Origin: a virus
Reading direction: 5' to 3' (one strand)
DNA: 37,836 bases
IMG/VR virus record: IMGVR_UViG_3300030393_000001
Span: 7,276 to 45,111 of that record
In this document: positions 14,524-36,114 of the stretch, piece after piece
Layout: each line of letters begins with the position of its first letter
Numbering within the stretch: position 1 is the first letter of the stretch
The notes under the pieces: generated by a model
The model's database searches: none
Seen by the model: the letters and a program-made list of their open reading frames with translations, nothing else
Told to the model about the DNA's origin: nothing
Program-made: the position numbers and the translations under genes

Positions 14524-14585
14524 GGGCTGCTCTGCGACGTCCCTATCTACGATAGCTGAGACAGATACCGCCGACAGAGCAGCCC
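14524..14585 (-). promoter_or_regulatory. Structured leader of the late transcript: 11-bp stem enclosing a TATCTGTCTC element and a 5-bp hairpin
   Basis: GGGCTGCTCTG (14524-14534) pairs perfectly with CAGAGCAGCCC (14575-14585). Inside, the coding strand reads GTATCTGTCTC (14568-14558), then CTATC-GTA-GATAG (14555-14543), a 5-bp hairpin with a three-base loop. The same element recurs at 35974-36001 with a compensating base-pair change. There is no U-run behind the big stem, so it is more likely an RNase III-type processing site or a polymerase pause signal than an intrinsic terminator. Confidence 0.6.
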
Positions 14586-14607
14586 CTTTGGAGAGGAACA
14601 CAATGTA

Positions 14608-14630
14608 TCCAATAGGGGTCCATAAGGATT
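14608..14630 (-). promoter_or_regulatory. Phage RNA polymerase promoter for the morphogenesis module
   Basis: It is a 23-base exact copy of the capsid promoter at 11172-11194. In transcription direction the core is CTTATGGACCCCTATTGGA, with the likely start at the G at 14610. It begins directly after the stop codon of the RNA polymerase gene and drives the leader at 14585-14524 and the head genes. Confidence 0.8.
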
Positions 14631-17111
14631 TCACCCGAAAAAATACTTTGAACTCAGAACCTTACGTAGGTCTAGCGTTCCGCGCTCCGGTGTGTCGTCT
14701 AACTCTAGGCCAGTCGTGGCCTCAAGCGCTGTCTTGAAGTCGTGTAGCACGTCGTGATCGGTGTGCAGTTTTACGAACTGTTCTCGAATTATGCGCTGCC
14801 AATCGTCTATGTGGCAGGCGTGCGTGCCGAAGTCGTCGTGGATCATCGCGAAATCTTCGATACCCTCTGCGACGCCCGCGTTGACGCACATCATAAGGTG
14901 AGTGGCGTCGGTGTCGTGCACTAGGTTAGGACTGCTGCCCTGTCGCTGTTTCCGGCTGTCGATCTCGTCTATCTCAACACGCACATTAAGTCGCATACGG
15001 GCACCGCCGATCCGGCTGTCCACGCGCACCACGTCGTTCTTGCGTGAACCCTGATATACCGGGAAACCCAACGGGCTGGTGTACATAAGGGGCATGCCCT
15101 CTTTAGCCACCGTACCCGATACCTTCTGGATCCAGTCCATGGCGGTTCGGGCCGCAACTACAACCTCGCCTATGCTCTCCCACAAGATGGACGACATGAA
15201 TATGCAGTGCTTGAAATTCGTGCCCTCGGGGAAGTGGTCGGTTTGCTGCTCCAAATACCAGCTGAATAGGCTAGCCGTACACGCCTGCTGAGTAGATCCG
15301 TACGGCAGGGTCATCACAGGCTTCTTAGACGCTTTGCGCGGCATGCCGTCGTAGCCTAATCTCTTAAAGAGGCTTAGCCAGTTGGCGGCGGCGACGCGGC
15401 GTCCAGCCTCTTTTTCATCAGCTGCTGGTCCCGTGGCGATAGCTCTGAGCTTGCGAGTTGCAACATCGGCGACGTCTTGATAGATGTCAGACGGTGCATC
15501 AGCAGGTAGGAGGTTAACTGCTCGACCTCCAACAGGATCGCGTAGCATTGCGGAGAAGTGCTGCAAGCCATTACAGCTTCCATCAAGAGCGATAGGAAGT
15601 CGTGATCTGAAAGTAGGCCCGTATTCCATAGCCCCAGCGTACTCGAAACAAAAAGCGAGGAACTGGAACGGCTTATCGGCGCTTTTCCAAGCGTCTCTGT
15701 TGCCCACTGGGTCCGCTGCGGCGGCAAGCCATTGATCTCGTCGTGCATCAATCCAAGCAACGCGTTCATCATAGCTGCACTTGTCCTCGCCGAACTTGTT
15801 CGCTCCATGGACCTTGAGCCAGTAGATACCGCGCTCTCCGATGGGCTTGGCCCGAGCGAACTCCAAGCATCCCTTTGCAGGGTCGCTACCTTGTGGACTG
15901 ACGCCAGCTGTTGCTGCATATAGTCGCGCTCGGAAGTCGAGTTGGTAGACATAGTAGAACTCCTTGTGTTCTTTAAGCATTTCGCCTATTCGCATAGTGC
16001 GGGATACGCCAAGCACGAGCGACTGTCGATGTTTCTCTAGCGCGTAGGTCTCGCGCGCCTCTGTCTTCCAGTCGTCCAGCCGATCCTTGTCGGCGTCGGA
16101 CAATAGGTCGCCCTTGGTGAACGGGCAGGGCGGCACCTCGTACGGCTGACTGGGCGGCATACCCACGCCAGTATTGCTTAGCCAGACCGCCTGTATCGCT
16201 TCCAGCACGCGCCTGTTAACCCGCCATGGTGTACGCTGTACCGAATTTACAGCGCTCATCACCGGGGCCATATCGGCCTGTGCGAGCAATTCCTCGTGAG
16301 GCTTCCGGCTAAAACCGCGCCGGGTTTTCACTAGTGGCGTGTTAGCCCGCAGTCGGGGAAGGTGATACCCGCCGTTGTACTGTGACACCCAGTCCTCGGG
16401 CTTCATGAGGCAGGGCATTCGGTCGGGCATCATTACGGCTAATGCCTCGTCTGAACTCTCTATCCAGTCTTTTACCTCTTGGGTCGCTCGCAGTACAACT
16501 CGCTGTTTGCGACCCTCGCGGATCGTCTCTTTGTACACCAGATCAGTGGCGTCCAGTGTCAGGCTTAGCAGCAGGCTACCGACGCCTACCATAGTCTCGT
16601 TGTCCCACGCGCGCCACTCGACTTCGTTGCTGCGCATAGAGTGGGTCAATACACGGTGCCTATGGCGGTAGCTCTCCGAGTTCCTGCTGTCCAAGTCGCG
16701 CTGCAATGCACTGAATAGGTCAGGCTTCTCCAACTCGAACTTAGTGAATTTCAGCTCATCCTCCACCATCATACCTATTCGGTGCGACACCTCGACTACC
16801 GCAACATCCTCGTACACCGCTCGCACAATCTCTGATAGCGAGAATAGCGCCACCTTGTCAGGCTCTACGGTAAGGATCAGTTTAGCGTACTTGCTGCTGC
16901 GCCGACGGCCACCGGGCTTGTTTCCTCCACAATAATCCGCGATGAACTCCGAGACCTGCGCTAGGTATCCTTTCAGCAGACGTTTACCGCCGTTAGTGCC
17001 GGTAAAGTCTTTACGCTCTACTGCCCTGTTCTCCTGATTACGGAACCGGGAGACGCCAAAGCTGACCATATTTTGTTCCCAGCTTAGCTGGTCTTGGAGT
17101 TCTACTGTCAC
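14631..17111 (-). CDS. Single-subunit DNA-dependent RNA polymerase, T7 gp1-like
   Basis: The product has 826 residues (T7: 883). Motif A is IALDGSCNGLQHF with the metal-binding aspartate at 510; motif B (KASKKPVMTLPYGS) carries the active lysine at about 597 and tyrosine 604; motif C is IHDDFGTH with aspartate 759. The C-terminus SSKYFFG ends in the conserved Phe-Ala/Gly type foot. The promoter specificity loop should be about residues 683-720 and differs clearly from T7, in line with the different promoter found in this genome. Translation probably starts at GTG 17111, which overlaps the stop of the resolvase gene (GTGA). Unlike in T7, the gene sits at the end of the replication module, not before it. 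Confidence 0.97.
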   Translation of the reverse strand: MTVELQDQLSWEQNMVSFGVSRFRNQENRAVERKDFTGTNGGKRLLKGYLAQVSEFIADYCGGNKPGGRRRSSKYAKLILTVEPDKVALFSLSEIVRAVYEDVAVVEVSHRIGMMVEDELKFTKFELEKPDLFSALQRDLDSRNSESYRHRHRVLTHSMRSNEVEWRAWDNETMVGVGSLLLSLTLDATDLVYKETIREGRKQRVVLRATQEVKDWIESSDEALAVMMPDRMPCLMKPEDWVSQYNGGYHLPRLRANTPLVKTRRGFSRKPHEELLAQADMAPVMSAVNSVQRTPWRVNRRVLEAIQAVWLSNTGVGMPPSQPYEVPPCPFTKGDLLSDADKDRLDDWKTEARETYALEKHRQSLVLGVSRTMRIGEMLKEHKEFYYVYQLDFRARLYAATAGVSPQGSDPAKGCLEFARAKPIGERGIYWLKVHGANKFGEDKCSYDERVAWIDARRDQWLAAAADPVGNRDAWKSADKPFQFLAFCFEYAGAMEYGPTFRSRLPIALDGSCNGLQHFSAMLRDPVGGRAVNLLPADAPSDIYQDVADVATRKLRAIATGPAADEKEAGRRVAAANWLSLFKRLGYDGMPRKASKKPVMTLPYGSTQQACTASLFSWYLEQQTDHFPEGTNFKHCIFMSSILWESIGEVVVAARTAMDWIQKVSGTVAKEGMPLMYTSPLGFPVYQGSRKNDVVRVDSRIGGARMRLNVRVEIDEIDSRKQRQGSSPNLVHDTDATHLMMCVNAGVAEGIEDFAMIHDDFGTHACHIDDWQRIIREQFVKLHTDHDVLHDFKTALEATTGLELDDTPERGTLDLRKVLSSKYFFG

Positions 17112-17500
17112 TTTTTCAATGCTTTCAGTTTGTCGCGGCGGATCTTCGCCAGTTTGTTAGCTCGAACCCTCTTTTCCTCCGCTGTCTTGAACGTAGGATG
17201 CAGCAGAGGAACCTGCGGGACAGAATGTTTCTCCCAGTACTCTACCAGTCGCCGTAACCACTCGTCGATGGACATCTTGTTTTTGGCGCGATTGGCAGAG
17301 GTCTTGATCTTTCCCTCCATGGCGTTGCAGTTAACGCACAGCACGCCCCGTATGTGACCGCCTGTGTGGCAGTGGTCGAGTACTGGGTTCTTCAATGCAC
17401 TCGCGTGCAGGGCACCATCGCACAGGGCACACTTATTGCCCTGCGCCTTTAGCATAGATGCGCGCACAGTCGCGATCTCTCGTTGTTTGAGCTTACGCAT
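17108..17500 (-). CDS. Endonuclease VII-type Holliday junction resolvase
   Basis: The product has 130 residues. It contains the zinc-binding pairs CALC (about 24-27) and CVNC (about 55-58), and between them LDHCHTGGHIRGVLC, the His-Me finger of the recombination endonuclease VII family (T4 gp49 type). The C-terminus is a basic helix. These enzymes cut branched DNA before packaging. T7 uses the unrelated gp3 for this; no gp3-like gene is visible here, so this protein is the likely replacement. It lies just upstream of and overlaps the RNA polymerase gene. Confidence 0.88.
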   Translation of the reverse strand: MRKLKQREIATVRASMLKAQGNKCALCDGALHASALKNPVLDHCHTGGHIRGVLCVNCNAMEGKIKTSANRAKNKMSIDEWLRRLVEYWEKHSVPQVPLLHPTFKTAEEKRVRANKLAKIRRDKLKALKK

Positions 17501-17504
17501 ACGG

Positions 17505-17681
17505 CTACTCCCGCATGTTCAGCTTCTCGCGCGCAGTCACCAGCTGATCCAGCGCGCAGCGAATATCGTGAGCTACTACAGCGTCACATGCATCGTCCGC
17601 GTGCTGTAAGTCTTCCCGCGTGGCGTCGATTAGTACGTCGAGTTCCTCGGCGGTGTACTGTTCGAGTTCGGCAGATTTCAT
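17505..17681 (-). CDS. Small acidic protein of 58 residues, unknown
   Basis: ATG at 17681 overlaps the stop of the gene before (ATGA), a strong AAGGAGG lies upstream, and the stop is four bases before the resolvase start. The product (MKSAELEQYTAEELDVLID...TAREKLNMRE) is acidic and predicted helical, possibly coiled coil. I do not recognise it. Tight packing and the ribosome binding site support that it is real. Confidence 0.75.
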   Translation of the reverse strand: MKSAELEQYTAEELDVLIDATREDLQHADDACDAVVAHDIRCALDQLVTAREKLNMRE

Positions 17682-17887
17682 CGTGCGGCCTCCTTTAGCG
17701 GATTAAGTAACAGAACTAGCGCGCGCAGCATGTCATCCGCGTCCGAGTACGCACCCAGCTCGGTTTCGCGCACACCCATTTCGCGGCTTGGGCTAGTAAC
17801 CAGCCACCCACCGTTTGGTAGCTCGCGGAGGTGCAAGCCGTCATCACGCTTGAACTCTCCCATCAATACAGGCTTAGTCGTCGGCAT
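17678..17887 (-). CDS. Small protein of 69 residues, unknown
   Basis: The start overlaps the 3' end of the exonuclease gene by 14 bases, with GGAGAA upstream. The product begins MPTTKPVLMGEFKRDDGLHLRELPNGGWLVTS and has alternating strands followed by a helix (DADDMLRALVLLLNPLKEAAR). No motif recognised. Its place in an unbroken chain of overlapping genes makes it a likely real gene. Confidence 0.7.
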   Translation of the reverse strand: MPTTKPVLMGEFKRDDGLHLRELPNGGWLVTSPSREMGVRETELGAYSDADDMLRALVLLLNPLKEAAR

Positions 17888-18974
17888 TCAGTTTCTCCTT
17901 CAACCAGTCTAGGACGTCGCGTGGGTTTTTATTCCGGCGCATCCATAGTGTTTGCATGTCACCAAACATAGCTTGAGTAGGTGACACTACTTGGCCCGTG
18001 CGCCAATGCTCGAACTCGTATCCTGATTTTCCAAGGTCCACCCAGATAGCTTTGACACGCTCGAACGCCTCGCGGTCGTTAGTGACGTTGGCCAGCAGGT
18101 CATACGTCATAGCAGGACCACACGGCTTAACCTTAGCTAATTCAGCGTCGATAACCTTGTTGTGGCGCGCATCTTCTTTGTCTGTCCCAGTACCCAGCTT
18201 CTGGATAGCGGTTGTGTATGCCTTTGTAGGCTTTACGCCGCAGATGTGATTACCAGTGACTTTGGGCACGCCACTGATGTTGTCAGCCGCATCCCCCATG
18301 AGAAGTTGCGCCCAAAAGAACTTGGTTCCTCTTCCGACCACTTTAGCCGAAGACTTGGAGCGGTCCAGTTCGATCCACCCAAATGTGTCTTCGAGCAGGT
18401 CGAGTTTGTCGTTGACGAGTAGATAGCCTGGGCACATGCGGAGGTCTTTGTCCGCCGAGGCGATAACGCAGAGTTCAGGAGTTCCTGCTCCCAGTGCTTG
18501 ATATGCTGCTTGAGACATTCCGTCATCAGCTTCTTGGTCGAGGTGGGCGGTTCCATTTCCGCCAGCGCCGATTTCGCTGATGAGGTAAGCTCGAATTGTG
18601 TCGAGAAACTCGGGCTTGTTGTCGCGATCTTTTCGGTTCGCTTGGTACTCTTTGAGGACAGCTTGATCGCCACGACCGCCTTTAGTTGACCCGGACGGAG
18701 TGGTGTGTACATGAAAGCTCGTGCCGCCCCCAAGTTGCATGATGTGTTCAACAGCTCGCCGCGCATTGTGTTGCATATCCTCCAACGATTTTCGTGGTGT
18801 GGGATCTTCTGGATCCAGTTCCGCTTTGCTTTCCGCAGACACTTGATACGCCATGAAGTCTGCGTCAATGTGGACTACCCGCCCCGGTACAGGTTTAGGG
18901 TAGTTGTAGCCGTGGTTCATGTCGGAGAGCTTACCCTCCGACAGAGACTTGTCTACCTGAGACAGTAGATCCAT
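17874..18974 (-). CDS. 5'-3' exonuclease, FEN/PIN fold (T7 gp6-like role)
   Basis: The product has 366 residues. Acidic metal-binding motifs of the flap endonuclease family are present in order: VVHIDADFMAYQ near residue 33, LDQEADDGMSQAAYQ, VIASADKDLRMCPGYL and LLMGDAADNISGVPKVTG, the last being the helix-hairpin-helix region that holds DNA. Such enzymes remove RNA primers and, in T7, degrade host DNA. The gene overlaps the upstream ssDNA-binding protein gene by one base (TAATG), as in T7-like replication clusters. Confidence 0.9.
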   Translation of the reverse strand: MDLLSQVDKSLSEGKLSDMNHGYNYPKPVPGRVVHIDADFMAYQVSAESKAELDPEDPTPRKSLEDMQHNARRAVEHIMQLGGGTSFHVHTTPSGSTKGGRGDQAVLKEYQANRKDRDNKPEFLDTIRAYLISEIGAGGNGTAHLDQEADDGMSQAAYQALGAGTPELCVIASADKDLRMCPGYLLVNDKLDLLEDTFGWIELDRSKSSAKVVGRGTKFFWAQLLMGDAADNISGVPKVTGNHICGVKPTKAYTTAIQKLGTGTDKEDARHNKVIDAELAKVKPCGPAMTYDLLANVTNDREAFERVKAIWVDLGKSGYEFEHWRTGQVVSPTQAMFGDMQTLWMRRNKNPRDVLDWLKEKLNADD

Positions 18975-19873
18975 TAGTACGGAATTTCGTCGTCGAGGTC
19001 GTCCAGAGGATCGCCCAGATCTTCCGCTTCCGCGTCACCCAGCTCATCAGGCTCAGCGTCGACTTCATCCTCCGGTTCGGCGTCCACTTCGTCGTCCAGC
19101 ACGTCACCAAGGGCACCGCCAGCTAACATCGCTTGAAGAGCAGAGCCTTCGAAGTCGATTGCCTGCGTCATGCAGATGTGTTGTAGATAACCACCTTCGC
19201 AGGTCTTCTCTACTTCGCCATCCTTGTACTCGTACGGGTGGCCCTTGATGCTGTCCCACTGCTCGGGTGTAGGATCGCCCCAGAGCAGCAGCTTGATCGG
19301 AACAGTCTGCTCCTTCATGCGTACCTTGACTTGGGTTACTTCACCGTCACCGTCTACGTCGTCTTTAATAGGCGGTGTGATCAGCCAGCCACGATCTTTG
19401 TCGCGGGCGTTCTCGTATGTCTTCTTGCTGTCGCCCTCACCCTTATCTTGGTGAACGATCTCAACGAAGAACGGCTCGCCGAGCATCTGTGCGATATGCG
19501 TAAGGTTCGCACGACCCGCTGCCATCTGCTTGAACAGCTTGGTCAAGTTGGCTTTGTCGCCCTGCTTAACATCCAGCATTTCGCGGTGTACAGGGTAGAT
19601 CGTCTTCTTGACGCCATCCACTTCGATCTCTTGCGCCAGCTTTTTGCTCACCAGCTCGAAGTAAGCGTAAGCTTTTTGGCTCGGCGCTTTCTTCTTGCCG
19701 TTATACATGTTTCCGTCGCGTTTGCCAACTTCAACGTACCCGACAAACCGGGCGGGGTACTTGCCAACCGGGGTAAGCTCGCGCTCAAAGCCGCCTTTGT
19801 CCTCCGTCTGGTCCTGCACGGTGCCCTTTTCAACGGACTTGTTGACTTGGCCTAGTAGTTTATCATTGTTCAT
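18974..19873 (-). CDS. Probable single-stranded DNA-binding protein, T7 gp2.5-like role
   Basis: The product has 299 residues. The last 50 are almost all Asp and Glu with Ala and Leu, and the chain ends in an aromatic residue (LDDEIPY). This acidic tail with a terminal aromatic is the hallmark of T7 gp2.5 and its functional relatives, where it contacts polymerase and helicase. The body is rich in lysine and aromatic residues with predicted beta strands, as for an OB fold. It lies between the DNA polymerase and exonuclease genes. Clear AAGGAGA before the ATG. No sequence motif proves the fold; the call is by tail, size and neighbours. Confidence 0.75.
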   Translation of the reverse strand: MNNDKLLGQVNKSVEKGTVQDQTEDKGGFERELTPVGKYPARFVGYVEVGKRDGNMYNGKKKAPSQKAYAYFELVSKKLAQEIEVDGVKKTIYPVHREMLDVKQGDKANLTKLFKQMAAGRANLTHIAQMLGEPFFVEIVHQDKGEGDSKKTYENARDKDRGWLITPPIKDDVDGDGEVTQVKVRMKEQTVPIKLLLWGDPTPEQWDSIKGHPYEYKDGEVEKTCEGGYLQHICMTQAIDFEGSALQAMLAGGALGDVLDDEVDAEPEDEVDAEPDELGDAEAEDLGDPLDDLDDEIPY

Positions 19874-19883
19874 GTGTGTCTCC

Positions 19884-20228
19884 TTACACGTCGTAGATTG
19901 GGTACACGTTGTTGCCGCGCACGCATTGTGTGTATTCGTTGTAGTCTTTGCCTATCCCACGGAACAAGACAAAACCATTGTTGTATCTCTGGCGCACCAT
20001 CATAGGTGCGGTCTGCCGGAACGACCATCTACGGTACGTGTCTAGAAACTGTCGACACATATCGCGCGCCATGAAATGGGTGCCGCTGAACACCACCACG
20101 CGGTCTCCAACAGACACTCGCATAGCCGCCTCGTTAAGGGCGCGGAACGTCTTGCCTGTGCACCGGGATGCCACGCACGGTTGTTTGAAGTCCCGCTGCT
20201 TGACTTTGTATTCTTCATACGTCAACAT
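19884..20228 (-). CDS. Small protein with a Walker A-like motif
   Basis: The product has 114 residues. ASRCTGKT at about residues 20-27 fits the Walker A pattern, and the following RALNEAAMRVSVGDRVVVFSGT looks like the helix and next strand of a helicase or terminase ATPase. No Walker B acidic motif is visible and the protein is far too short for a complete motor, so it may be a remnant or a regulator. It overlaps the polymerase gene by 14 bases and precedes the ssDNA-binding protein gene. Confidence 0.6.
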   Translation of the reverse strand: MLTYEEYKVKQRDFKQPCVASRCTGKTFRALNEAAMRVSVGDRVVVFSGTHFMARDMCRQFLDTYRRWSFRQTAPMMVRQRYNNGFVLFRGIGKDYNEYTQCVRGNNVYPIYDV

Positions 20229-22578
20229 GATGTAGCTCCAGCATGTCTTTACCAGCCTCTACGTCCACGGGGAATGGGACGGGGCAGTCTATGTTGAACT
20301 GGGATTTTAGTAGCTTTGGCACACTTTCCATGATAACTTTGATCACTTTGCATACCTCGTCTAGGACGTCCTTGTGACAGTCCACCCAGATACAGTCATG
20401 CACGGTGTTCACTAGCAGTGCACGTCCGTCCCAGTTATTCTTCTTCATGAAGTACCTCCACAGCCGACCGATGATCATCTGTACGATCTCACCGCCCGTT
20501 CCCTGCACTGGGTAGTTCTTCAATTCTGTCGGGCTAAAGGTGTCTTCAATACCCTTGCGCTTCAAGAAACTTGGTGCGTCGTTCGATGTCCAAGTGTACA
20601 TCGTTCCAGTCGGTGCTTGCCACCAACCACGTCGGAACACGCGGAAGCCACGATCTTGGCCAGCGCGGAATGGTTCAGCAGTCTCGTGTACTGCTGCCTC
20701 GACCGCCGCGTTGAACTTCGGAATACCGGGGTATTCCTTGTCCTCTTTGACGATCATGTCTTTAACTTCGTCGATGTCCATGCCGGTCTCTTCCGAGATC
20801 AAGGCGGCACCTGCACCGTAGGCTCGCTGGAACGAGAAGATCTTACACTTAGTACGCTCCTTCTTCCACTTGGCGTAGTCCTCGGAGGCATCCTCGTCTT
20901 TGCAGTGCAGCAAGGCGAAGTCGTACGACACTGAGTTTTTCAATGCCACTCGCTTACAGTGGAAGTCAACCCGGTTGATAAGGTCTTTGCAAAGGTTAGC
21001 GTCGCCTGATAGCAGTCCTTGAACAACAACCTCTAGCTGACTGTAGTCTGCCTCGATCATGCGCCCATCGTCGCCGAAGCGGCTAACAAAGATCGCTTTT
21101 AGTTCCGACTTGTCGCCGCGCGGGAAGTTCTGTGCGTTCGGGTTGTTGGCGCTAAGGCGTGAAGTTACCGTTGAGGTGTGGTTCAACGAGTGGTGCACGA
21201 TACCGTCGTCCATAACGCATGTGAGCATACCGACATGCTCTTTCTTGCGTGGGTCGTACCGCATGTAGTACGTACCGATCTCTTTGTCCAGCGCCTGTAG
21301 CTTACCCATGTTCTCAAGGAACGGGATACCGCGCTTTGAAAGCGATGCAATGATGTCAGCACCAGTACCGTACAGCGGCTTACCCGCGCCATCGACGTTC
21401 TTAGTCTTCCACTTAGGATCAGGCGCAGTGATCTGAGGAAGCTCGTAGAAGAAGTCTTGGATCTTGGTCTTCAACTCTCCCCAACCGTCCATCTTCTTGA
21501 ACTTCGGCTCACCCATACGCTTGCCGCCCTTGAAGGTGTCCTGCTTGGTACCGTCACCTTCGACAAGATCACCGTTCTCGCGGAACTGTAGGTGGTACAT
21601 ACCGTCAACCAGATGGCACCTGTATTCCCAGCCCTCGCTACCGTTGACAACAGTATTGACCCAATCCGTCGGGGCAACGGGTTCGCCGTCGAACATCGGC
21701 CAGTCTTCCTTGGTGCGGAACCGGGCCAACTCGCCAGTCTTCTCGTCCGTGTATGTTGCGGACTTCTTGTAGCGAATTGTGCCGCCGTAGATAAGGCAAG
21801 AAGTGTGAACGCGCGACCCCCAACTGAACCCCACCTCTTCCGGTATGAATGCTACGTGTTCTTCGAGCGCCTTGGCCGTTTCTTCTCGCTTCACCTCTAG
21901 CTTCTTCTGGTTCACAGCCGCTCGTGCACGGTTCACTTTGATGCCGTTGAACTCCATTTCAGTGGTAGCGGCTAGACCTTCCATCCGGTGCAGTATCGCT
22001 TTGTACATGCCTAGCTCTTTGGCTAGCTTGACTTGCCCGCGATAGATCTTTTCTGTGTTGCCGATGTCACCGGAGTTGCGTCCCTCGTCCTCCGTGCCTA
22101 CAAGGTAGTCTGCCAGCAGGTCTGGGTCGATGTCGGCGGTCTGCACACCCGCTTTCCACAGTGCTTTGATCTGGTCGATCTTTACACGCCCGCCGTAGCT
22201 CTCGGCGATGTCGTCCATAGAACACATGTGGTACTTGCGGTCCTGTGCATGTAGCAGGTACTCAGCGTACTGCGTACACCAAATGCGGCCACCTCTCTGA
22301 AAGAACGGAATGACGTGTGGGTTGAGGCAGTTGGCCATCTCGTATAGCATGTCGAACTTGATGTTGTGGCCAACCAACACTTTGACGTCAGGATCAATGA
22401 CTAAGTGGTTATCGTCGGACTTACCCTCGAACCGTCGCCAACTCGCGCACTTGTCGCCCTGCTTCTTCCATCCGCGCATGACCACGTAGTTGTCAGGATG
22501 CCACTGGTTTGCAACACGTTTGTGCGACTTATGGATCTGGGTCTCTTCATCAAAGATTAGATACATGCGCTGTCCCAT
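20215..22578 (-). CDS. DNA polymerase, family A, T7 gp5-like
   Basis: The product has 787 residues (T7: 704). The 3'-5' proofreading domain is intact: FDEET with D10 and E12, GHNIKFDM with D76, and a later DIGNTEKIY. Polymerase motif A is MIEADYSQLEVV, motif B KIFSFQRAYGAGAALISEETG and motif C VNTVHDCIWVD. A longer stretch of about 120 residues between the exonuclease and polymerase parts (around KSATYTDEKTGELARF to GELKTKIQDFFYE) contributes to the greater size. The start overlaps the upstream gene by 29 bases and has no clear ribosome binding site; ATG at 22566 is an alternative. Confidence 0.97.
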   Translation of the reverse strand: MGQRMYLIFDEETQIHKSHKRVANQWHPDNYVVMRGWKKQGDKCASWRRFEGKSDDNHLVIDPDVKVLVGHNIKFDMLYEMANCLNPHVIPFFQRGGRIWCTQYAEYLLHAQDRKYHMCSMDDIAESYGGRVKIDQIKALWKAGVQTADIDPDLLADYLVGTEDEGRNSGDIGNTEKIYRGQVKLAKELGMYKAILHRMEGLAATTEMEFNGIKVNRARAAVNQKKLEVKREETAKALEEHVAFIPEEVGFSWGSRVHTSCLIYGGTIRYKKSATYTDEKTGELARFRTKEDWPMFDGEPVAPTDWVNTVVNGSEGWEYRCHLVDGMYHLQFRENGDLVEGDGTKQDTFKGGKRMGEPKFKKMDGWGELKTKIQDFFYELPQITAPDPKWKTKNVDGAGKPLYGTGADIIASLSKRGIPFLENMGKLQALDKEIGTYYMRYDPRKKEHVGMLTCVMDDGIVHHSLNHTSTVTSRLSANNPNAQNFPRGDKSELKAIFVSRFGDDGRMIEADYSQLEVVVQGLLSGDANLCKDLINRVDFHCKRVALKNSVSYDFALLHCKDEDASEDYAKWKKERTKCKIFSFQRAYGAGAALISEETGMDIDEVKDMIVKEDKEYPGIPKFNAAVEAAVHETAEPFRAGQDRGFRVFRRGWWQAPTGTMYTWTSNDAPSFLKRKGIEDTFSPTELKNYPVQGTGGEIVQMIIGRLWRYFMKKNNWDGRALLVNTVHDCIWVDCHKDVLDEVCKVIKVIMESVPKLLKSQFNIDCPVPFPVDVEAGKDMLELHHVDV

Positions 22579-26942: not shown

Positions 26943-26943
26943 T

Positions 26944-27048
26944 TCAAAATCCTTCTGCTGCGGCTATAAAGCCCGTTAGTTCACAGGTTAGTGGCCAGAT
27001 ACTCGCGGAGATCGACCAGCATTGTTGCAATAGGAACAGTGTCTCCAT
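26944..27048 (-). CDS. Possible micro-protein of 34 residues
   Basis: ATG at 27048 overlaps the stop of the 48-residue gene upstream (TGATG), and the stop lies just before the phosphoesterase start. The product (METLFLLQQCWSISASIW...) is mildly hydrophobic. The only support is coupling and tight fit; the stretch may instead be a non-coding spacer. Confidence 0.3.
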   Translation of the reverse strand: METLFLLQQCWSISASIWPLTCELTGFIAAAEGF

Positions 27049-29541: not shown

Positions 29542-29827
29542 CGTAACCGTCCTTGTAGTAGAAGAATGTACCCCCCTCGCGCACAGCCACGAAGGTAGGG
29601 TCGAAGTCGTCCAGCAAAGTCACAGCCGTGCTGTCCGCCGTAGCGCAGCGGGCCACGGCGGCGCGGTGCTTAAAGGTCGACCCTTTCGGGCTAAGTACAA
29701 CAGCGTGGAAGTCTTGACAGTGGTGCATGTCAGCCCACGCGATGCATTTCAAATTCCGCCATGAGGTACTTTCAGTAGCCCCCTTCACGGCGGTCATAAA
29801 CATCATACTTTCGTGTTCACGTTTCAT
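29486..29827 (-). CDS. Protein of 113 residues, unknown
   Basis: The ATG is preceded by AAGGAGA, which lies inside the last codons of the Clp-like gene. The product is soluble with a mixed composition (MKREHESMMFMTAVKGATESTSW..., ending ALAAIRREQES) and no motif I recognise. It overlaps the primase gene at its end. Confidence 0.65.
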   Translation of the reverse strand: MKREHESMMFMTAVKGATESTSWRNLKCIAWADMHHCQDFHAVVLSPKGSTFKHRAAVARCATADSTAVTLLDDFDPTFVAVREGGTFFYYKDGYDVLASTGALAAIRREQES

Positions 29828-29829
29828 AC

Positions 29830-30333: not shown

Positions 30334-30363
30334 AGAGTTTCCTTTCGAGGTTTACCTGTGAGA

Positions 30364-30379
30364 CAGGGCCGAAGCCCTG
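30364..30379 (-). terminator. Stem-loop CAGGGC-UUCG-GCCCTG behind the 120-residue gene
   Basis: A perfect 6-bp stem closes on a TTCG tetraloop in the transcript, one of the most stable loops. It lies between the stop at 30406 and the start at 30333. No T-run follows, so it may protect or process mRNA rather than terminate. Confidence 0.5.
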
Positions 30380-30405
30380 CCTACCAAATGAACCTGGGTA
30401 CAGTA

Positions 30406-30768
30406 TCAGCCGAGGTCGTCTGCGAGCGGATCGACGTCTTCTTCGTCGGCGGTTTCGTCTGCTTCAACTTCGGCGTCGGCCAGAGCGTACGACTGGCGCG
30501 TGACTTTCTTCAAGGTGCCCTGCTCGATAGCGGCCTTGATGTAGGTACGGACAGTCGCGGCAGCGGGCAGGTCAACAGAGGTACGGATAGCGACGACAGC
30601 AAGTTGGGCGATGGTCAAAGTGGTTGCACCAGCAGCGGCACCGGCAACGAACATGGCGACAACAGCGTCAATCTTGTCTTGGTTCGAGTTCGCTACTTTC
30701 TTGGCCAGCTCGGGGTTGGTTTCGGCGATGTCGGACAGGTCTGCGAAGTCGAATGGATTCTTGGTCAT
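30406..30768 (-). CDS. Early protein of 120 residues with an acidic tail, unknown
   Basis: AGGAGAAA precedes the ATG. The product has an Ala/Val-rich centre (AVVAMFVAGAAAGATTLTIAQLAVVAIRT), a part that could be a winged-helix (TVRTYIKAAIEQGTLKKVTRQSY), and a highly acidic end (ADETADEEDVDPLADDLG). It stands alone between two stem-loops, which suggests separately processed and possibly abundant mRNA. An acidic tail is common in DNA mimics and ssDNA-binding accessory proteins, but no function can be assigned. Confidence 0.75.
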   Translation of the reverse strand: MTKNPFDFADLSDIAETNPELAKKVANSNQDKIDAVVAMFVAGAAAGATTLTIAQLAVVAIRTSVDLPAAATVRTYIKAAIEQGTLKKVTRQSYALADAEVEADETADEEDVDPLADDLG

Positions 30769-30812
30769 GTGTTTCTCCTAGAGATCTTTGTTAAGTTCGA
30801 TGTAAAGCACAT

Positions 30813-30838
30813 CATAAAGGGCACCGCCGGGATGCCCT
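30813..30838 (-). terminator. Weak intrinsic terminator, AGGGCA/TGCCCT stem
   Basis: AGGGCA (transcript, from 30838) pairs with TGCCCT (ending 30818) around an 8-9 base GC-rich loop, followed by TTATGATG. It starts a few bases after the stop codon at 30843. The T-tract is short, so it probably terminates partially. Confidence 0.5.
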
Positions 30839-30842
30839 CAAG

Positions 30843-31112
30843 TCATGCTTTGGCCCGCATGAGCTTCTTGTAGGCTTTCATGCCCGCTTTGATGACGTCC
30901 AGCGGGATAGGCACTATTGATGTGGGCGACCAGCGGTCTGGCGTGCGACTACTGCCCCGCGTACTGCTGAACCACTTGAACAGCTTTACACCTTTTTCGT
31001 TGACCACACACCGATACTCCCGGCGACCGCAAGTAAAATCCACAAACACGGAAGCCACTGTAGCTGATCGTGCGGCCTGCGCTTCTTGCACAGTAACTTT
31101 GAAGCCAGTCAT
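30843..31112 (-). CDS. Early protein of 89 residues, unknown
   Basis: ATG overlaps the stop of the gene upstream (ATGA). The product (MTGFKVTVQEAQAARSATVASVF...) has a beta-rich middle (VFVDFTCGRREYRCVVNEKGVKLFKWF) and a basic C-terminal helix (DVIKAGMKAYKKLMRAKA). Not recognised. A stem-loop follows directly. Confidence 0.7.
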   Translation of the reverse strand: MTGFKVTVQEAQAARSATVASVFVDFTCGRREYRCVVNEKGVKLFKWFSSTRGSSRTPDRWSPTSIVPIPLDVIKAGMKAYKKLMRAKA

Positions 31113-31315
31113 GGGCGATGCCCCTTAAACAGTCGCGGCGCAAGCACACTGCTTGATCGCCGAGGACGTCGCTCGGGCGTACCGCGCATTGCGTGCGGTG
31201 CCTTGTAGTCCAGCCTAACAACTCCCTCGTCTTGGGTTGCCCGTTTTCCGACAGCGAACATTGCGTCTAGTGTTCGCTGTAAGAAGTTGCTCTTCAATAG
31301 TGCTTTAATGCCCAT
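31109..31315 (-). CDS. Small basic early protein of 68 residues, unknown
   Basis: The product (MGIKALLKSNFLQRTLDAMFAVGKRATQDEG...) is basic, with a C-terminal part rich in arginine and proline (GTPERRPRRSSSVLAPRLFKGHRP) that looks unstructured. It starts two bases after the stop of the exported small protein. No motif recognised. Confidence 0.65.
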   Translation of the reverse strand: MGIKALLKSNFLQRTLDAMFAVGKRATQDEGVVRLDYKAPHAMRGTPERRPRRSSSVLAPRLFKGHRP

Positions 31316-31317
31316 GT

Positions 31318-31569
31318 TTAGGTCTCCCGATAAATTCGTGTTTCGCCCGATGCAAACATGCAGGAACGGAAAGCTGTGTCCGGCTCAGTGTACGTGATTG
31401 TGTACGACCCGTCGTCGTAGTCATACCAAAATCGCCACGCGGTGCCGTCGTCGTCAACAAACTGACTTATTACTTCCTCGCCGTGATTGGACAGTCCCAT
31501 CATTGCGCCGGGGGTTGACCCACAGTTGCTGCTAGCCGCTAGAAGCAGGGCAGCTGCTACGATGCTCAT
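31318..31569 (-). CDS. Small exported protein of 83 residues
   Basis: The start is ATG 31569, overlapping the upstream stop (ATGA); a longer form would lose the clean signal peptide. MSIVAAALLLAASSNCGS is a signal sequence with a cysteine after it, but SSNC is not a proper lipobox. The mature part is acidic with many Tyr and Trp (DGTAWRFWYDYDDGSYTITY) and one more cysteine. It could be a periplasmic factor or outer spanin-like protein; neither is shown. Confidence 0.65.
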   Translation of the reverse strand: MSIVAAALLLAASSNCGSTPGAMMGLSNHGEEVISQFVDDDGTAWRFWYDYDDGSYTITYTEPDTAFRSCMFASGETRIYRET

Positions 31570-32192
31570 TGCACACCATACTGCGTGGATAGCCAATCGT
31601 GAGTGCTGCGCAGTTGGTCCGCGTGGCGCTTCCAGCCGGTAGGACAGTCTGCCTTGCCTGCGTAGGCTTTGTGCAGCAGGTCGTGTGCGGCGTGAAGAGA
31701 GTGCATACGACTGGATACCTCTTGACGTGTACGGTCACTCGGCCAGCCCTGCGGTGGCGGCGCGGTGTCAGGGTTGCCCTCGGCCACGACCCAGTACATC
31801 TTAGTGGATGGGTTGTAAGTGAAGTCAACCCCGTCCTCAACAGCGGAAGTTGACCGCAGCGAACCTAGGTTCTTGAGTTGCATACCGTCCACGAGGTGCA
31901 AATAGAACAGAGCCGCGTACTGTTTGTTACACTCGGAAACGAGCATAACGCTTTCGTTGTTGCTCATGAAATCCGCGCCAGCGGTCTCATAAAAGGCGTT
32001 GAACGCGTCAACGGTGGTCATCCACGAGTATTCAACTTGGCCCTTGTACTTGCCGATCATAGTCTGCAAGACAACGCCGGGATTGATCTGTCGGAACGCT
32101 TCCTTCATGAAGTGCACAAACATCGGATTGTTTTGTCGGTCAATTGAGAACAACACGTACTTGAACCCAAGACCGCTTGAAATAACGTTCAT
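31566..32192 (-). CDS. Early protein of 208 residues, unknown
   Basis: The largest of the early group. The N-terminal half is mixed alpha/beta (FKYVLFSIDRQNNPMFVHFMKEAFRQ...VEYSWMTTVDAFNAFYETAG), the C-terminal half ends in a His/Ser-rich helical stretch. ATGA overlaps at both ends. It contains no motif I recognise. Position among early genes suggests a role in host takeover or counter-defence. Confidence 0.75.
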   Translation of the reverse strand: MNVISSGLGFKYVLFSIDRQNNPMFVHFMKEAFRQINPGVVLQTMIGKYKGQVEYSWMTTVDAFNAFYETAGADFMSNNESVMLVSECNKQYAALFYLHLVDGMQLKNLGSLRSTSAVEDGVDFTYNPSTKMYWVVAEGNPDTAPPPQGWPSDRTRQEVSSRMHSLHAAHDLLHKAYAGKADCPTGWKRHADQLRSTHDWLSTQYGVQ

Positions 32193-32347
32193 TTCATAAC
32201 TCCTTCTCGGCGCACCCAGCGCCCGTTAACTTGCACCCACTCAGCGCGGGCCTTGATAGAACACACTGCCATAAGGAAGGCGTCCTCTTTGCATCCACGC
32301 TCTCTCGCGGATCGTGCTGCTACTGCGTACTGGTCGGGATCAAACAT
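32189..32347 (-). CDS. Small early protein of 52 residues
   Basis: ATG 32347 with GAGG upstream, eight-base overlap with the gene before and ATGA with the gene after. The product (MFDPDQYAVAARSARERGCKEDAF...) is a helical, charged protein with WVQVNGRWVRREG at the end. Unknown. Confidence 0.65.
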   Translation of the reverse strand: MFDPDQYAVAARSARERGCKEDAFLMAVCSIKARAEWVQVNGRWVRREGVMK

Positions 32348-32579
32348 CGGGTGCCTCCGCGAACTCGAACCGGGAAAGGTGGCACATATACGGCCCGTAC
32401 CTGCCCTCCACTTCCACGAATGGCCGCGAGGTGAAAATACCCTCCTCCACGCGATTAGCAGTATAAACTGCGCCAAACTCCAATTCCGGCACGTTTCGCG
32501 TACCTATTGCGACCAGCTTTGTACCCGGTGCAACGAAGTGCATCTGGCTGTGTTCAATGCACTGACTTACATATCCCAT
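32340..32579 (-). CDS. Small early protein of 79 residues
   Basis: The product appears to be a small beta-barrel type: FVAPGTKLVAIGTRNVPELEFGAVYTANRVEEG and PFVEVEGRYGPYMCHLSRFEF. The strand pattern resembles SH3-like barrels, and the next protein upstream (32567-32971) has a related pattern (AGRVYTMWCLKGVNRVQ...RFKLVED). Overlaps both neighbours. Function unknown. Confidence 0.7.
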   Translation of the reverse strand: MGYVSQCIEHSQMHFVAPGTKLVAIGTRNVPELEFGAVYTANRVEEGIFTSRPFVEVEGRYGPYMCHLSRFEFAEAPDV

Positions 32580-32971
32580 GTGTCACTCCAATCGTCGCAC
32601 GGGTCGCCTATCTGGTAGCATTTATGCGCACCGTACATGCTCGCCATGCCTATGGTCTTGTGCAGGACACTCTCCCAGCCGGACCACAAGAAAGGGTCGT
32701 GCGGATCATCCTCCACTAGTTTGAACCGAGCTGACGCTACGCGCCATGACCCGTCGTCACACTGCACACGATTGACGCCTTTGAGGCACCACATTGTGTA
32801 CACACGACCTGCTGTGAATGAGAACATGTCCATGCTACACTTGCACCGAACTAGGCACGTCTCACCCTCCGCTAGTCGGATGTCGTCTGCGTAGAACGAT
32901 CGGCCTGTGCGGCTAAACCCTGTTGTAGTTCTAACCACAGGGCCTCCACGTCTTGCTCGGTCAAAGCCCAT
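32567..32971 (-). CDS. Early protein of 134 residues, unknown
   Basis: The start overlaps the upstream stop by 11 bases. The first 30 residues are basic. The middle (FSFTAGRVYTMWCLKGVNRVQCDDGSWRVASARFKLVEDD) has the same layout of strands as the 79-residue neighbour, with the shared feature F-(T/A)-x-G-x-VYT, so the two could be related small barrels. The end is acidic (CDDWSDTWDM). Six cysteines. No function assigned. Confidence 0.65.
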   Translation of the reverse strand: MGFDRARRGGPVVRTTTGFSRTGRSFYADDIRLAEGETCLVRCKCSMDMFSFTAGRVYTMWCLKGVNRVQCDDGSWRVASARFKLVEDDPHDPFLWSGWESVLHKTIGMASMYGAHKCYQIGDPCDDWSDTWDM

Positions 32972-33155
32972 ATTTCACCACGTCTTTCTCGGTGACGCGA
33001 GACCAGCCGTCCGCCGTCTTGAAGCGTACGCCGTATCCCACAAGCGCCTGACGCTTGTGCACTTCAAACCAAGAGGCTTCCAGCATAATGAAGCGCAGGC
33101 GCTCCGCTGACCGTGCGGCCTTATCCCGCGATACGAATAGTGCATGTTCACTCAT
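32961..33155 (-). CDS. Small early protein of 64 residues
   Basis: A TAGGAG ribosome binding site precedes the ATG. The product (MSEHALFVSRDKAARSAERLRFIMLEASWFEV...) has a basic helix and a short strand region ending DGWSRVTEKDVVKYGL. Unknown. Confidence 0.65.
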   Translation of the reverse strand: MSEHALFVSRDKAARSAERLRFIMLEASWFEVHKRQALVGYGVRFKTADGWSRVTEKDVVKYGL

Positions 33156-33170
33156 TGCCCGGCTCCTAAG

Positions 33171-33245
33171 CTAGAGTTTCGTTAGACCCACTGCCACAGT
33201 AAAAGCGACGAGGGCCACTAAAAACAGTACCATGTCGGGTGCCAT
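33171..33245 (-). CDS. Membrane micro-peptide of 24 residues (twin 1)
   Basis: ATG 33245 shares a base with the stop of the upstream gene (TAATG). The product is a single hydrophobic helix, MAPDMVLFLVALVAFTVAVG plus LTKL. It shares VAFTVAV with the 22-residue peptide at 33823-33891. Coupled start, absence of other coding content and the match between the two peptides support it as real. Confidence 0.6.
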   Translation of the reverse strand: MAPDMVLFLVALVAFTVAVGLTKL

Positions 33246-33433
33246 TAGACACGCTTAACCGTCACGGACTCGGACACTTCCGAGTAATCCAGGTCGCCGC
33301 GATCCATCAAGCCTACTTCGATACGCGTCACTGCGACGAGCATGTTATGGCGACCAAACACATGTAGTGTTTCGCGCTTGTTGCCGGGACGAGTGGTCTG
33401 GATTGCCCACAGTTCATTTTCAAAGGTAGTCAT
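33245..33433 (-). CDS. Small early protein of 62 residues
   Basis: The product (MTTFENELWAIQTTRPGNKRETLHVFGRHNML...) has alternating strands and ends in SEVSESVTVKRV. A weak AAAGA lies before the ATG. The stop overlaps the start of the 24-residue peptide. Unknown. Confidence 0.65.
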   Translation of the reverse strand: MTTFENELWAIQTTRPGNKRETLHVFGRHNMLVAVTRIEVGLMDRGDLDYSEVSESVTVKRV

Positions 33434-33468
33434 AGCGTTATCTTTCGATGAGGGAAGGGGGGTACGAG

Positions 33469-33792
33469 TTACACGTACGGAGCTTGGTTATAGATCCACT
33501 GTCCGTCAGCCGTGAACTCGCTTTTTGGGTCTTTAGTGCGCTTACGCTTGTCAACGAAACGCGACAGATACTGCAAACCTGTCATAAGTACAGCCATCAT
33601 TAGACCCGCCATGATGGCCACTAGGAGGCCTGTTAGAGTACCAGCGAATGCTACTGCCATAGCGACAGTGAATGTCACGTCTACCAGTGTTGCATGCTTG
33701 ATCATGCGCTTGATGCCGAACACCCGCGCACCTGTAACGAGTACAGCAGCGACAGTGGCGGCAGACGCGCCGAGTATGAAACCAATGGCCAC
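33469..33792 (-). CDS. Early membrane protein of 107 residues
   Basis: GTG start at 33792 behind AGGAGG. Three hydrophobic segments: IGFILGASAATVAAVLVTGA, LVDVTFTVAMAVAFAGTLTG and LLVAIMAGLMMAVLMTGL, then a basic cytoplasmic tail (SRFVDKRKRTKDPKSEF). It lies between the two micro-peptides and contains a similar TFTVAMAVAFAG stretch. It may form a complex with them, for example acting on the inner membrane or in superinfection exclusion; this is inference. Confidence 0.7.
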   Translation of the reverse strand: MAIGFILGASAATVAAVLVTGARVFGIKRMIKHATLVDVTFTVAMAVAFAGTLTGLLVAIMAGLMMAVLMTGLQYLSRFVDKRKRTKDPKSEFTADGQWIYNQAPYV

Positions 33793-33822
33793 AGTACGGC
33801 CTCCTATTGTTGTGTGAAGCGG

Positions 33823-33891
33823 CTAGTAGTACGCCAGCAGAAGTAGCACGGCCACTGTAAAGGCCACGCCTATTGCAAAACCTAGGATCAT
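33823..33891 (-). CDS. Membrane micro-peptide of 22 residues (twin 2)
   Basis: ATG 33891 overlaps the stop of the first early gene (ATGA). The product is one hydrophobic helix, MILGFAIGVAFTVAVLLLLA plus YY. VAFTVAV is shared with the peptide at 33171-33245. No ribosome binding site of its own is obvious, so it probably depends on coupled translation. Confidence 0.6.
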   Translation of the reverse strand: MILGFAIGVAFTVAVLLLLAYY

Positions 33892-34436
33892 ACCGGCTCG
33901 CCTTGCTCCAGCGGATCTGCGTCTTCCTTGACCAACGAGCGCAGAGCGGCCAGCTGATCTGGGTCGATGCTGTCTTCTGCGTTGTGCTTGGCGGCGCGCT
34001 TGTCAATCTTGGACACAAACGCCTTAAGCAGCACGTTGAGGCTTACAGGCGCAGGATCTGGCTCTGGTGTGGCGTTGAACCAGAAAGTCTTGGCCACTGC
34101 CAAGTCAGCCAACTCAAAGCCCTTGGCCTTCGCCTTGTTGGCGTGGAACATATGGGCGTTGTCACCTTCTGTGATGTACTCAAACCCGAGGTTTGTCTCA
34201 ACCCACGCCACGATGGCGTTGCGGCGCACGCCCTTGAAAAGTTGTTTCTTGTCCACCAGCATGTTGATACGCTTGACCGCAGGACGCACGTCGCCCGTCT
34301 CTTTCCAGCGCGTGGCAACGGCGTGCAAGTACAGTTGGATGTCCATCTGCAACGCCTTGCCGCGAGTGTTGATGTCAGCCACAGCCAGCGCAAAGCTGTC
34401 GTCGCTATCAGTCTTGTTCAGTGCATTATAGTCCAT
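33888..34436 (-). CDS. First early gene, protein of 182 residues, unknown
   Basis: GGAGAG before the ATG, and a stem-loop (34453-34466) just upstream. It is the first gene transcribed after the terminus region, the place of gp0.3 in T7, which blocks host restriction. The product is helical (MDYNALNKTDSDDSFALAVADINTRG..., KRINMLVDKKQLFKGVRRNAIVAWVETNLGFEYI) with an acidic end (VKEDADPLEQGEPV). It does not resemble gp0.3 by sequence. An early counter-defence or host-control role is inferred only from position. Confidence 0.8.
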   Translation of the reverse strand: MDYNALNKTDSDDSFALAVADINTRGKALQMDIQLYLHAVATRWKETGDVRPAVKRINMLVDKKQLFKGVRRNAIVAWVETNLGFEYITEGDNAHMFHANKAKAKGFELADLAVAKTFWFNATPEPDPAPVSLNVLLKAFVSKIDKRAAKHNAEDSIDPDQLAALRSLVKEDADPLEQGEPV

Positions 34437-34452
34437 AGTGCTCTCCAGTTGT

Positions 34453-34466
34453 TAGGCGAACGCCTA
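34453..34466 (-). promoter_or_regulatory. Leader hairpin upstream of the first early gene (TAGGCG/CGCCTA)
   Basis: A perfect 6-bp inverted repeat with two bases between, located a few bases before the GGAGAG of the 182-residue gene. The same stem, one base pair longer and with a 7-base loop, precedes the tail tube A gene at 10089-10109. Likely an mRNA end or processing element. Confidence 0.45.
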
Positions 34467-35335
34467 GCCCGGTTATCCCGTCAAGCTAGACGCTCTGTGA
34501 TTGACACATTGCTGCACTACGCGTCCTATTTGCTACCCTAGTCCGACCAGTGGGCCCACCGTCATATAGCGGGTACGTTCGTGAGGTAGTGCAGACGGGT
34601 ATCAACCCGTAGTATTGTGGCAACTCCTACTTGCTCGCTATTGGATACAGAAGTGGCGATGCCTACTAGCCTCGTGTAGAAGCTATTCAAACTCGTCGTT
34701 TGCGGCAAGTGACTATGCGTCTATGTGGCCGCTATGGCTTATAATCGTTTCAATTGGTCCTCCTGATGTAGTTGAAAAGATGCAGAGGGTAGAGAGAACC
34801 GCGTTCGGCCAGCCTGCGTCTCTACTCGCAAGCCCTACTAGGAGGTCTGATCTCTGCACCTATTCAACCACACCACACGCGGCCCATGTTGCTAATACAG
34901 GCCACGCATAGCGTGAGTTGTTCGCACCTATAACTTAGTGGCGTTTCAGTCGCATGAGTACACAGTAACCGCCCGTCTAAAGATTGTAAGCGGGATGCCG
35001 TGGCTTGCGCGACTGAGGCCCGTTAAGCCTAGTCTAGTGCTTGGTCCCCGTGCATTCGCTAGTATGCTCTTCGGATACGAGAACCCGTAGCTGCTTTTAC
35101 AAGGCGGCAGGCCGTAGGGCTGCTTAAACGCAATCAACCCCTAGCTCTTGCCAATCATCCCAAGCCCGATGCCCACTCTTTCAGAGGCACGCTGACTTGG
35201 ACAGCAATCCTTGACGACGTGTTCACCATCCGGTGACTTGTGTCGCTATGAGCACTTAGCGGCGTTTCCCGCATTCAGCTAGTCTAAGGTGCCAGCTACC
35301 CAACATCCGGCCAGTGCCTCCGGTGTCGCCTTGTT

Positions 35336-35364
35336 AGCTTAGTTTCTAGGGTTTAAGCTGTCAA
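35336..35364 (-). promoter_or_regulatory. Possible host sigma-70 promoter (early)
   Basis: On the coding strand TTGACA (35364-35359) is followed after 17 bases by TAAGCT (35341-35336). The -35 box is perfect and the spacing ideal, but the -10 box keeps only TAnnnT. The layout repeats at 35600-35628. Confidence 0.4.
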
Positions 35365-35599
35365 CCCCCCTATTTCGTGGCCGGTCATCGGCCTAAGCAT
35401 GTTATAGACTATGCGTGTCTAAGTCAGGGAATAGGTACGCTTTACAGCCTTTGTGAGCCTACAACGCTCAACCTAACCCTTGCACCCTTACAGGCGATAA
35501 CGAGCGGTATTCAATTCCCCGCTTAACCAGCTAGTTTGCTTGGTGCTAGCCACCCACCAGACAAGAGGGCTTTCGCTCAGTCCGTCTGGAATTGTCTTT

Positions 35600-35628
35600 A
35601 GCCTAGGTTACTCAGTTCAGGCTGTCAA
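35600..35628 (-). promoter_or_regulatory. Possible host sigma-70 promoter (early), second copy
   Basis: TTGACA (35628-35623) and, 17 bases on, TAGGCT (35605-35600). It shares TTGACAGCyT and the TARGCT box with the copy at 35336-35364. Tandem strong host promoters ahead of the early genes are known from T7 (A1, A2, A3). Confidence 0.4.
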
Positions 35629-35753
35629 CTGTCTTTCTATCCGGCTCTTGCTTGCTACCGTGGCTCTTATCGGTCTACGTGCTCTGGAGCTAATCCCGTG
35701 GGGTTGCTACCGTCTGCTGCGTTGTTCCGTGATTAGAGTTATAGGCTTACTAG

Positions 35754-35967
35754 CTATCAGAGTGCAACACCTTTCTTGCTATCAGATCCAACTATCTTAC
35801 TAGCCCTTGATTTCATTCACTGTTCTAGCCTTGGACCTAGCCCTATCCCGGCCCTATCATAGCTCTATCATTCATCTATCAGCTATCATCAGCCTAGCTC
35901 TAGCCTAGCCCTATCATGATCTATGCATGCATTCCCTACCCCATACCAGCTCTATGCTAGCTCTATC
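35754..35967. repeat. CTATC repeat array, partly phased at 11 bp
   Basis: CTATC occurs ten times: 35754, 35779, 35792, 35843, 35854, 35865, 35876, 35883, 35911 and 35963. Four successive copies (35843 to 35876) are exactly 11 bases apart, close to one helical turn, so they face one side of the DNA. Between them CCTAGCCC and AGCTC recur. The layout is like short repeats near the ends of T7 DNA. A protein-binding or replication/packaging role is inferred. Confidence 0.7.
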
Positions 35968-35973
35968 CCGTCC

Positions 35974-36001
35974 CCATCTACGATGGTTTTGAGACAGATA
36001 C
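35974..36001 (-). promoter_or_regulatory. TATCTGTCTC element with CCATC-GTA-GATGG hairpin (concatemer-junction-like)
   Basis: On the coding strand GTATCTGTCTC (36001-35991) is followed by four bases and the 5-bp hairpin CCATC-GTA-GATGG (35986-35974). The element starts 36 bases downstream of the promoter start at 36037. The copy in the late leader (14543-14568) has CTATC-GTA-GATAG: the second base pair changes from C-G to T-A with pairing kept. ATCTGT resembles the class II pause site of T7 RNA polymerase (ATCTGTT) at the concatemer junction. Confidence 0.55.
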
Positions 36002-36035
36002 AGGCCCCGTAACAATCATCACATCCGGCTTTTAT

Positions 36036-36055
36036 CCTATAGGGGACCATAAGCC
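36036..36055 (-). promoter_or_regulatory. Phage RNA polymerase promoter in the terminus region
   Basis: On the coding strand it reads CTTATGGTCCCCTATAGGAT, the same core as the promoters at 11172 and 14608 but with A/T and T/A changes at two sites, and ending even more like T7 (CTATAGGA). Likely start is the G at 36037. By place it matches the T7 terminal promoters phi-OR or phi-OL, used for replication start and packaging. Confidence 0.75.
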
Positions 36056-36104
36056 ATGCCAGCCCTAGCCCTTGGTGTATCCCAGCCCGTCACCCTGTGC
36101 AAAA

Positions 36105-36114
36105 GAGACAGATA
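36105..36114 (-). promoter_or_regulatory. Further TATCTGTCTC copy
   Basis: TATCTGTCTC on the coding strand, followed further on by GACGGG as in the copy at 35991-36001, but without the hairpin. It lies upstream of the terminus promoter. Only three copies of this decamer are seen in the window. Confidence 0.45.

Follow-up and report, generated by a model that had tools for sequence, protein, structure and literature searches.

Promoter-linked copies of a pause-like decamer carry a covarying hairpin in a clade of T7-like phages

What function is served by a ten-base sequence, TATCTGTCTC, that recurs between the genes of a T7-like phage? The window analysed here, a stretch of 37,836 nucleotides, is part of the 45,111-bp virus record IMGVR_UViG_3300030393_000001 and is near-identical to Kafavirus SWcelC56 (KX397280); the genes under discussion all lie on the coding strand of the phage, here the minus strand. 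The original prediction had placed three copies of the decamer on the coding strand outside genes and likened them to the pause and packaging signal of T7. All three are present as exact, intergenic matches, against a chance expectation of 0.04 (shuffle mean), a count of three being reached in 0 of 100 shuffles, and the whole 45,111-bp genome contains the decamer only at these sites. Kafavirus SWcelC56, a nearly identical phage, has all three decamers and the promoters described below, but none of them is annotated in its record. The three copies are as follows.

14558..14567, minus strand: copy 1 of TATCTGTCTC, promoter-linked pause-like element, mid-genome
35991..36000, minus strand: copy 2 of TATCTGTCTC, promoter-linked pause-like element, left end
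36105..36114, minus strand: copy 3 of TATCTGTCTC, predicted concatemer-junction (packaging) pause signal, from position and sequence as in relatives

A repeat search revealed what the original prediction had overlooked, a 21-bp sequence, CTTATGGWCCCCTATWGGATA, directly upstream of copies 1 and 2. It occurs three times on the minus strand of the window and not at all in shuffles. The repeat is taken as the phage's own promoter because of its likeness to the T7 promoter core (CACTATAGG) and its position before the capsid gene, which is that of phi10 in T7. Presumably it is read by the single-subunit RNA polymerase encoded nearby, which is 99.9% identical to that of Kafavirus SWcelC56 and 51% identical to that of Paracoccus phage ParMal1.

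14631..17111, minus strand: single-subunit RNA polymerase gene (826 aa), by protein similarity
14606..14626, minus strand: phage RNA-polymerase promoter, mid-genome (CTTATGGACCCCTATTGGATA), by repeat search and likeness to the T7 promoter core; predicted +1 near 14610
36033..36053, minus strand: phage RNA-polymerase promoter, left end (CTTATGGTCCCCTATAGGATA), by repeat search; predicted +1 near 36037
11170..11190, minus strand: third promoter copy, before the major capsid gene and lacking the element, by repeat search

Counted from the two starts predicted by our alignment with T7, copies 1 and 2 would begin near +44 and +38, and their hairpins near +56 and +52. SWcelC56 has a fourth promoter copy, weaker than the others, before a probable tail-fibre gene (L002, 37006-37026), and this copy is likewise without the element. 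Copy 3 has neither promoter nor hairpin and sits upstream of the left-end promoter. A single class of three decamers was thereby ruled out: copies 1 and 2, each beginning roughly 40 nt downstream of a promoter, are promoter-linked leader elements, and copy 3 is a different thing.

Relatives were picked by RNA-polymerase similarity and their whole genomes retrieved. Promoters and elements were counted in 11 phages (the window phage, ParMal1, ParKuw1, Paso, Palo, RHEph02, X3_9, SI01, Atu_ph02, Alfirin and NMeng1), each relative having its own promoter family of 3-6 copies. TATCNGT was found within 95 nt downstream of 26 of the 56 promoters, where 1.2 would be expected from its density; four of these sites are inside coding sequence, and the remaining 22 amount to exactly two per genome. 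The order is promoter, TATCNGT and, mostly, a hairpin of 5 bp around a 3-nt loop. One cassette of each genome lies in the left-end non-coding region; in the window phage, the next ∼1.5 kb behind it has no annotated gene. The other is mid-genome behind a polymerase gene, that of the RNA polymerase in the window phage, ParMal1 and ParKuw1 and that of the DNA polymerase in Paso, Palo, RHEph02, X3_9, SI01, Atu_ph02, Alfirin and NMeng1. Contig G003 keeps two copies of the element, its mid copy lying ∼1.8 kb past the RNA-polymerase gene. Because its neighbor differs in this way, the mid-genome cassette is not bound to any particular gene. The next gene downstream of this copy also varies between phages, which, together with the ∼1.5 kb at the left end, argues against a gene-specific leader. 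Capsid and tail-fibre promoters of the relatives are without the element. Downstream of it, the A+T content is above the genome level at 20 of the 22 sites. The element often departs from the junction signal discussed below at its fifth base (TATCGGT, TATCAGT). Conservation in relatives, which had been proposed as a check, is thus borne out: the promoter-linked element is conserved, and covarying, in a clade of T7-like phages.

Several further sequences resemble the cassette or adjoin it. Imperfect CCTAGCCCTATC-type repeats occupy 35836-35980, just downstream of the left-end cassette, and comparable repeats are found there in relatives. Contig G001 and Vibrio phage 1.204.O each have two promoters that share a downstream element of diverged sequence (ATCAGTAACARAGTAT and GTATCTATTGC); in the Vibrio phage (L018), the promoters at 12610 and 22163 (reverse complement) follow the DNA- and RNA-polymerase genes and share GTATCTATTGCNNCCGTTAGAATAG, a diverged element. 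Viral contigs scanned for the hairpin pattern of the window gave 34 matches, 33 of which look unrelated, nearly all being one recurring coding-type sequence. The match that looks real, L073 (851-1100), has a promoter-like sequence upstream, an element with CCATC-GGA-GATGG and A+T-rich repeats downstream; a relative of the window RNA polymerase was looked for on this contig and not found.

The hairpin CYATC-GTA-GATRG had been reported behind two of the decamers, with a second pair of C-G in one and T-A in the other. This is correct, and exact matches to the pattern occur only behind copies 1 and 2.

14543..14555, minus strand: covarying hairpin CTATC-GTA-GATAG behind copy 1, by exact pattern match and covariation
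35974..35986, minus strand: covarying hairpin CCATC-GTA-GATGG behind copy 2, by exact match and covariation; held out of the covariance model and recovered by it

At 16 of 29 sites (one coding), a perfect 5-bp stem with a 3-nt loop lies in the 30 nt behind TATCNGT, whereas the same search in dinucleotide shuffles gave a mean of 1.2 and a maximum of 6 in 1000. This comparison is the unbiased test. Ten distinct in-register hairpins pair in 50 of 50 cells, a percentage that is circular because they were chosen for pairing, and have both-side changes at all five pairs; their covariation score is 1.00 versus 0.29 ± 0.07 when shuffled. The further covariation sought in relatives is therefore seen throughout the stem. 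Palo, for example, has CTGCC-AGA-GGCAG and CCGTC-AGA-GACGG, and CCATG-GGA-CATGG of Atu_ph02 becomes CCGTG-GGA-CACGG in Alfirin. These pair counts were taken from the ten in-register 13-mers; aligning the complete set of full elements with MAFFT put several stems out of place. A covariance model built from nine sites placed held-out sites among its top matches (window 35972-36000, the ParKuw1 mid copy, both NMeng1 copies and the Alfirin mid copy). In the window, no Rfam family scored above its gathering score. The model also gave a weak match (E 1.5) to SP6 6131-6156, with the hairpin CCGTC-GGA-GACGG. At SP6 (L065) 6118-6156, a promoter after the RNA-polymerase gene is followed directly by this hairpin and A+T-rich repeats, without TATCNGT; it is a possible SP6 origin element.

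Copy 3 is probably a T7-type concatemer-junction signal, to judge from its place and sequence. The sole coding-strand ATCTGTT of T7 is at 161, the first base past the 160-bp terminal repeat, and a junction signal is also found at the mapped terminal-repeat boundary of Pasto (271), Palo (260) and SP6 (174, shifted by one base). The boundary sequence is TATCTGT in T7, SP6 and Pasto and CATCTGT in Palo; Paso has ATCTATC at 371 in its place, and no such signal was seen at the terminal-repeat boundary of phiKMV or LUZ100. In ParMal1, ParKuw1, SI01 and Atu_ph02, TATCTGTT is found upstream of both the left-end promoter and the accompanying element. Since copy 3 shares the place and order of the junction signals of relatives, the terminal repeat of the window phage is predicted to end at 36114. 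The junction consensus, said to have been given by Zhang and Studier in 2004, is reportedly (C/T)ATCTGT(T/A); copy 3 has TATCTGT, but its last base is C, where the consensus has T or A.

The resemblance to the T7 signal, which is also a class II terminator (ATCTGTT), thus holds for copy 3, with TATCTGT on the coding strand and a position upstream of the left-end promoter, as expected beside a terminal repeat. It does not extend to a packaging role for copies 1 and 2, which are promoter-linked, duplicated and hairpin-bearing, have a variable fifth base in relatives and do not sit at a terminal-repeat edge; in Palo and Paso, the promoter-linked copies are 116 and 69 nt past the terminal repeat. 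That all three copies are packaging signals, as originally suggested, is accordingly very improbable. In favor of such a reading, the T7 junction carries TATCTGT at the repeat edge, and T7 RNA polymerase with lysozyme pauses at the concatemer junction to start packaging (PMC3276506). However, a junction-like signal is separate from the promoter-linked copies in Palo, ParMal1, ParKuw1, SI01 and Atu_ph02, and a packaging cut in mid-genome would yield fragments.

The 11-bp stem described around copy 1 is present, and the leader that contains it folds far better than its shuffles.

14524..14585, minus strand: enclosing stem of the mid-genome leader, arms 14575-14585 and 14524-14534; minimum free energy −40.1 kcal/mol, z −4.8

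The mid-genome leaders of the window phage, ParMal1, ParKuw1 and X3_9 have unusually stable folds (z −2.8 to −5.0); most left-end leaders fold no better than chance. TATCTG forms the 3′ arm of a stem in ParMal1, ParKuw1, L040, L044 and both copies of G003. In this the Paracoccus-phage mid copies are like the engineered hybrid T7 terminators (T7hyb; PMC9157156), but the natural copies are without a T-run and the window copy lies within the enclosing stem, not in its arm. An intrinsic (Class I) terminator, a stem-loop followed by a U-run, was ruled out, as no T-run follows the 11-bp stem on either strand; the stem at copy 1 is followed by AGATAAAAAAAAGG. A Class II terminator has ATCTGTT and then a U-run, and here ATCTGTC is followed by TCAGC or TCAAAA.

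Pausing or processing of the late transcript, the use previously suggested for copy 1, fits these data less well. Its partner copy precedes ∼1.5 kb without an annotated gene and the genes downstream of the mid copy differ, so a gene-independent role, such as that of a replication origin, fits better. We consider it plausible, if a little short of probable, that copies 1 and 2 are promoter-proximal pause sites of the RNA polymerase that yield a short transcript priming replication at two origins. The cassettes sit where origins of the T7 type would be expected, one at the left end and the other immediately behind the RNA-polymerase gene, the position of the phi1.1A and phi1.1B promoters in T7. 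As at the T7 primary origin, A+T-enriched DNA lies downstream, modestly so at copy 1 (0.55 versus a genome average of 0.44). The T7 origin differs in having two promoters and no TATCTGT, and the covarying triloop hairpin is not seen there.

In the proposed mechanism, the phage RNA polymerase would initiate at the promoter and pause or stop a few bases past TATCTGTCTC, and the short transcript would stay held on the template until extended as a leading-strand primer by the phage DNA polymerase and helicase. Both cassettes would then be replication origins. In T7, helicase together with DNA polymerase is able to dislodge a transcription complex that has stalled and to prime from its RNA (PMC5997990). 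The hairpin, whether of displaced-strand DNA or of RNA, may keep the bubble open or bind a replication protein. T7 RNA polymerase terminates at ATCTGTT, in one test 9 nt past it (PMC9624206); with a stop at that distance, the RNA would end within the hairpin's 5′ arm, which makes a displaced-strand DNA hairpin as likely as an RNA hairpin. Copy 3 would act separately, as a T7-type concatemer-junction pause at the terminal-repeat edge that starts packaging. A parallel by analogy is offered by human mitochondria, where replication is primed from transcripts of a T7-like polymerase stopped ∼120 nt after the promoter (PMC6317783). That system, light-strand promoter to CSBII (LSP-CSBII), also combines promoter and nearby stop to give a short primer; CSBII differs in using a G-quadruplex and has no sequence relation to the element.

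Several observations weigh against a pause-made primer. The fifth base of the promoter-linked element may be T, A or G; that of the junction signal is T in nearly all phages, and the two may therefore not be the same pause signal. No T-run lies behind the element, and the VSW-3 phage polymerase, when tested, ignores ATCTGTT (PMC9624206). The T7 primary origin is without TATCTGT, and neither GC nor TA skew turns consistently at the mid-genome copy. The ParMal1 left copy, Paso, RHEph02 and the mid copies of Atu_ph02 and X3_9 have no clean 5-bp triloop hairpin.

The same facts can be arranged differently. It is rather unlikely, but deserves weight, that the element is an attenuator that terminates or slows transcription from the two promoters and tunes early and middle genes, without a role in replication. 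Such a function would suit the signals that form a 3′ stem arm (ParMal1, ParKuw1, L040, L044 and G003), as in the engineered hybrid terminators, which stop T7 RNA polymerase at 83-91% (PMC9157156), and the late capsid and tail-fibre promoters are without the element; yet the T-run is again missing, the left copy has no annotated gene to tune over ∼1.5 kb, and lineages differ in the gene that follows the mid copy. The mid-genome stems could also suggest a leader for mRNA processing or stability, an RNase III site or a protective 5′ hairpin, but the left copies mostly fold at chance level and have no nearby gene, which leaves this quite improbable. A DNA-level origin element, in which an extruded or displaced-strand hairpin binds primase, a helicase loader or another phage protein and TATCNGT is part of the site and not a pause signal, would suit a covariation that preserves shape and not sequence and a fifth base that is free. 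The copy 2 hairpin forms alone when folded as DNA, and the loops of the window phage and SI01 are of the C-GNA-G type that readily extrudes in N4 promoters (PMC4496689). We regard this as distinctly unlikely: the loops of other phages (ATT, GTT, CTA) are not GNA, and the predicted DNA stability is low, at −1.5 to −3 kcal/mol. A paused transcript that primes replication remains the reading that we prefer.

Elsewhere in the window, at 11833-11958, four in-frame 27-nt tandem repeats of an acidic GDDTVV type lie in the gene just upstream of the capsid gene, a probable scaffold.

In the open literature, searched for T7 origins, junction pausing and the phages compared here, no description of the promoter-linked element was found, and within that scope, which leaves out key subscription-only T7 papers, it seems undescribed. 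The junction signal predicts the terminal-repeat boundary for many phages available only as sequence, and the promoter sequences gathered here add to those of a polymerase clade useful as tools. How a transcript is handed over from a T7-like RNA polymerase to the DNA polymerase at an origin is poorly understood, and a discrete, conserved and covarying element behind two promoters is a defined target for studying this step. It is possible, though rather less likely than not, that the two cassettes of each genome in this T7-like clade, as promoter-proximal polymerase pause elements with a covarying hairpin, mark both origins and set the point at which RNA primer gives way to DNA; they would then be the phage counterpart of the mitochondrial LSP-CSBII switch.

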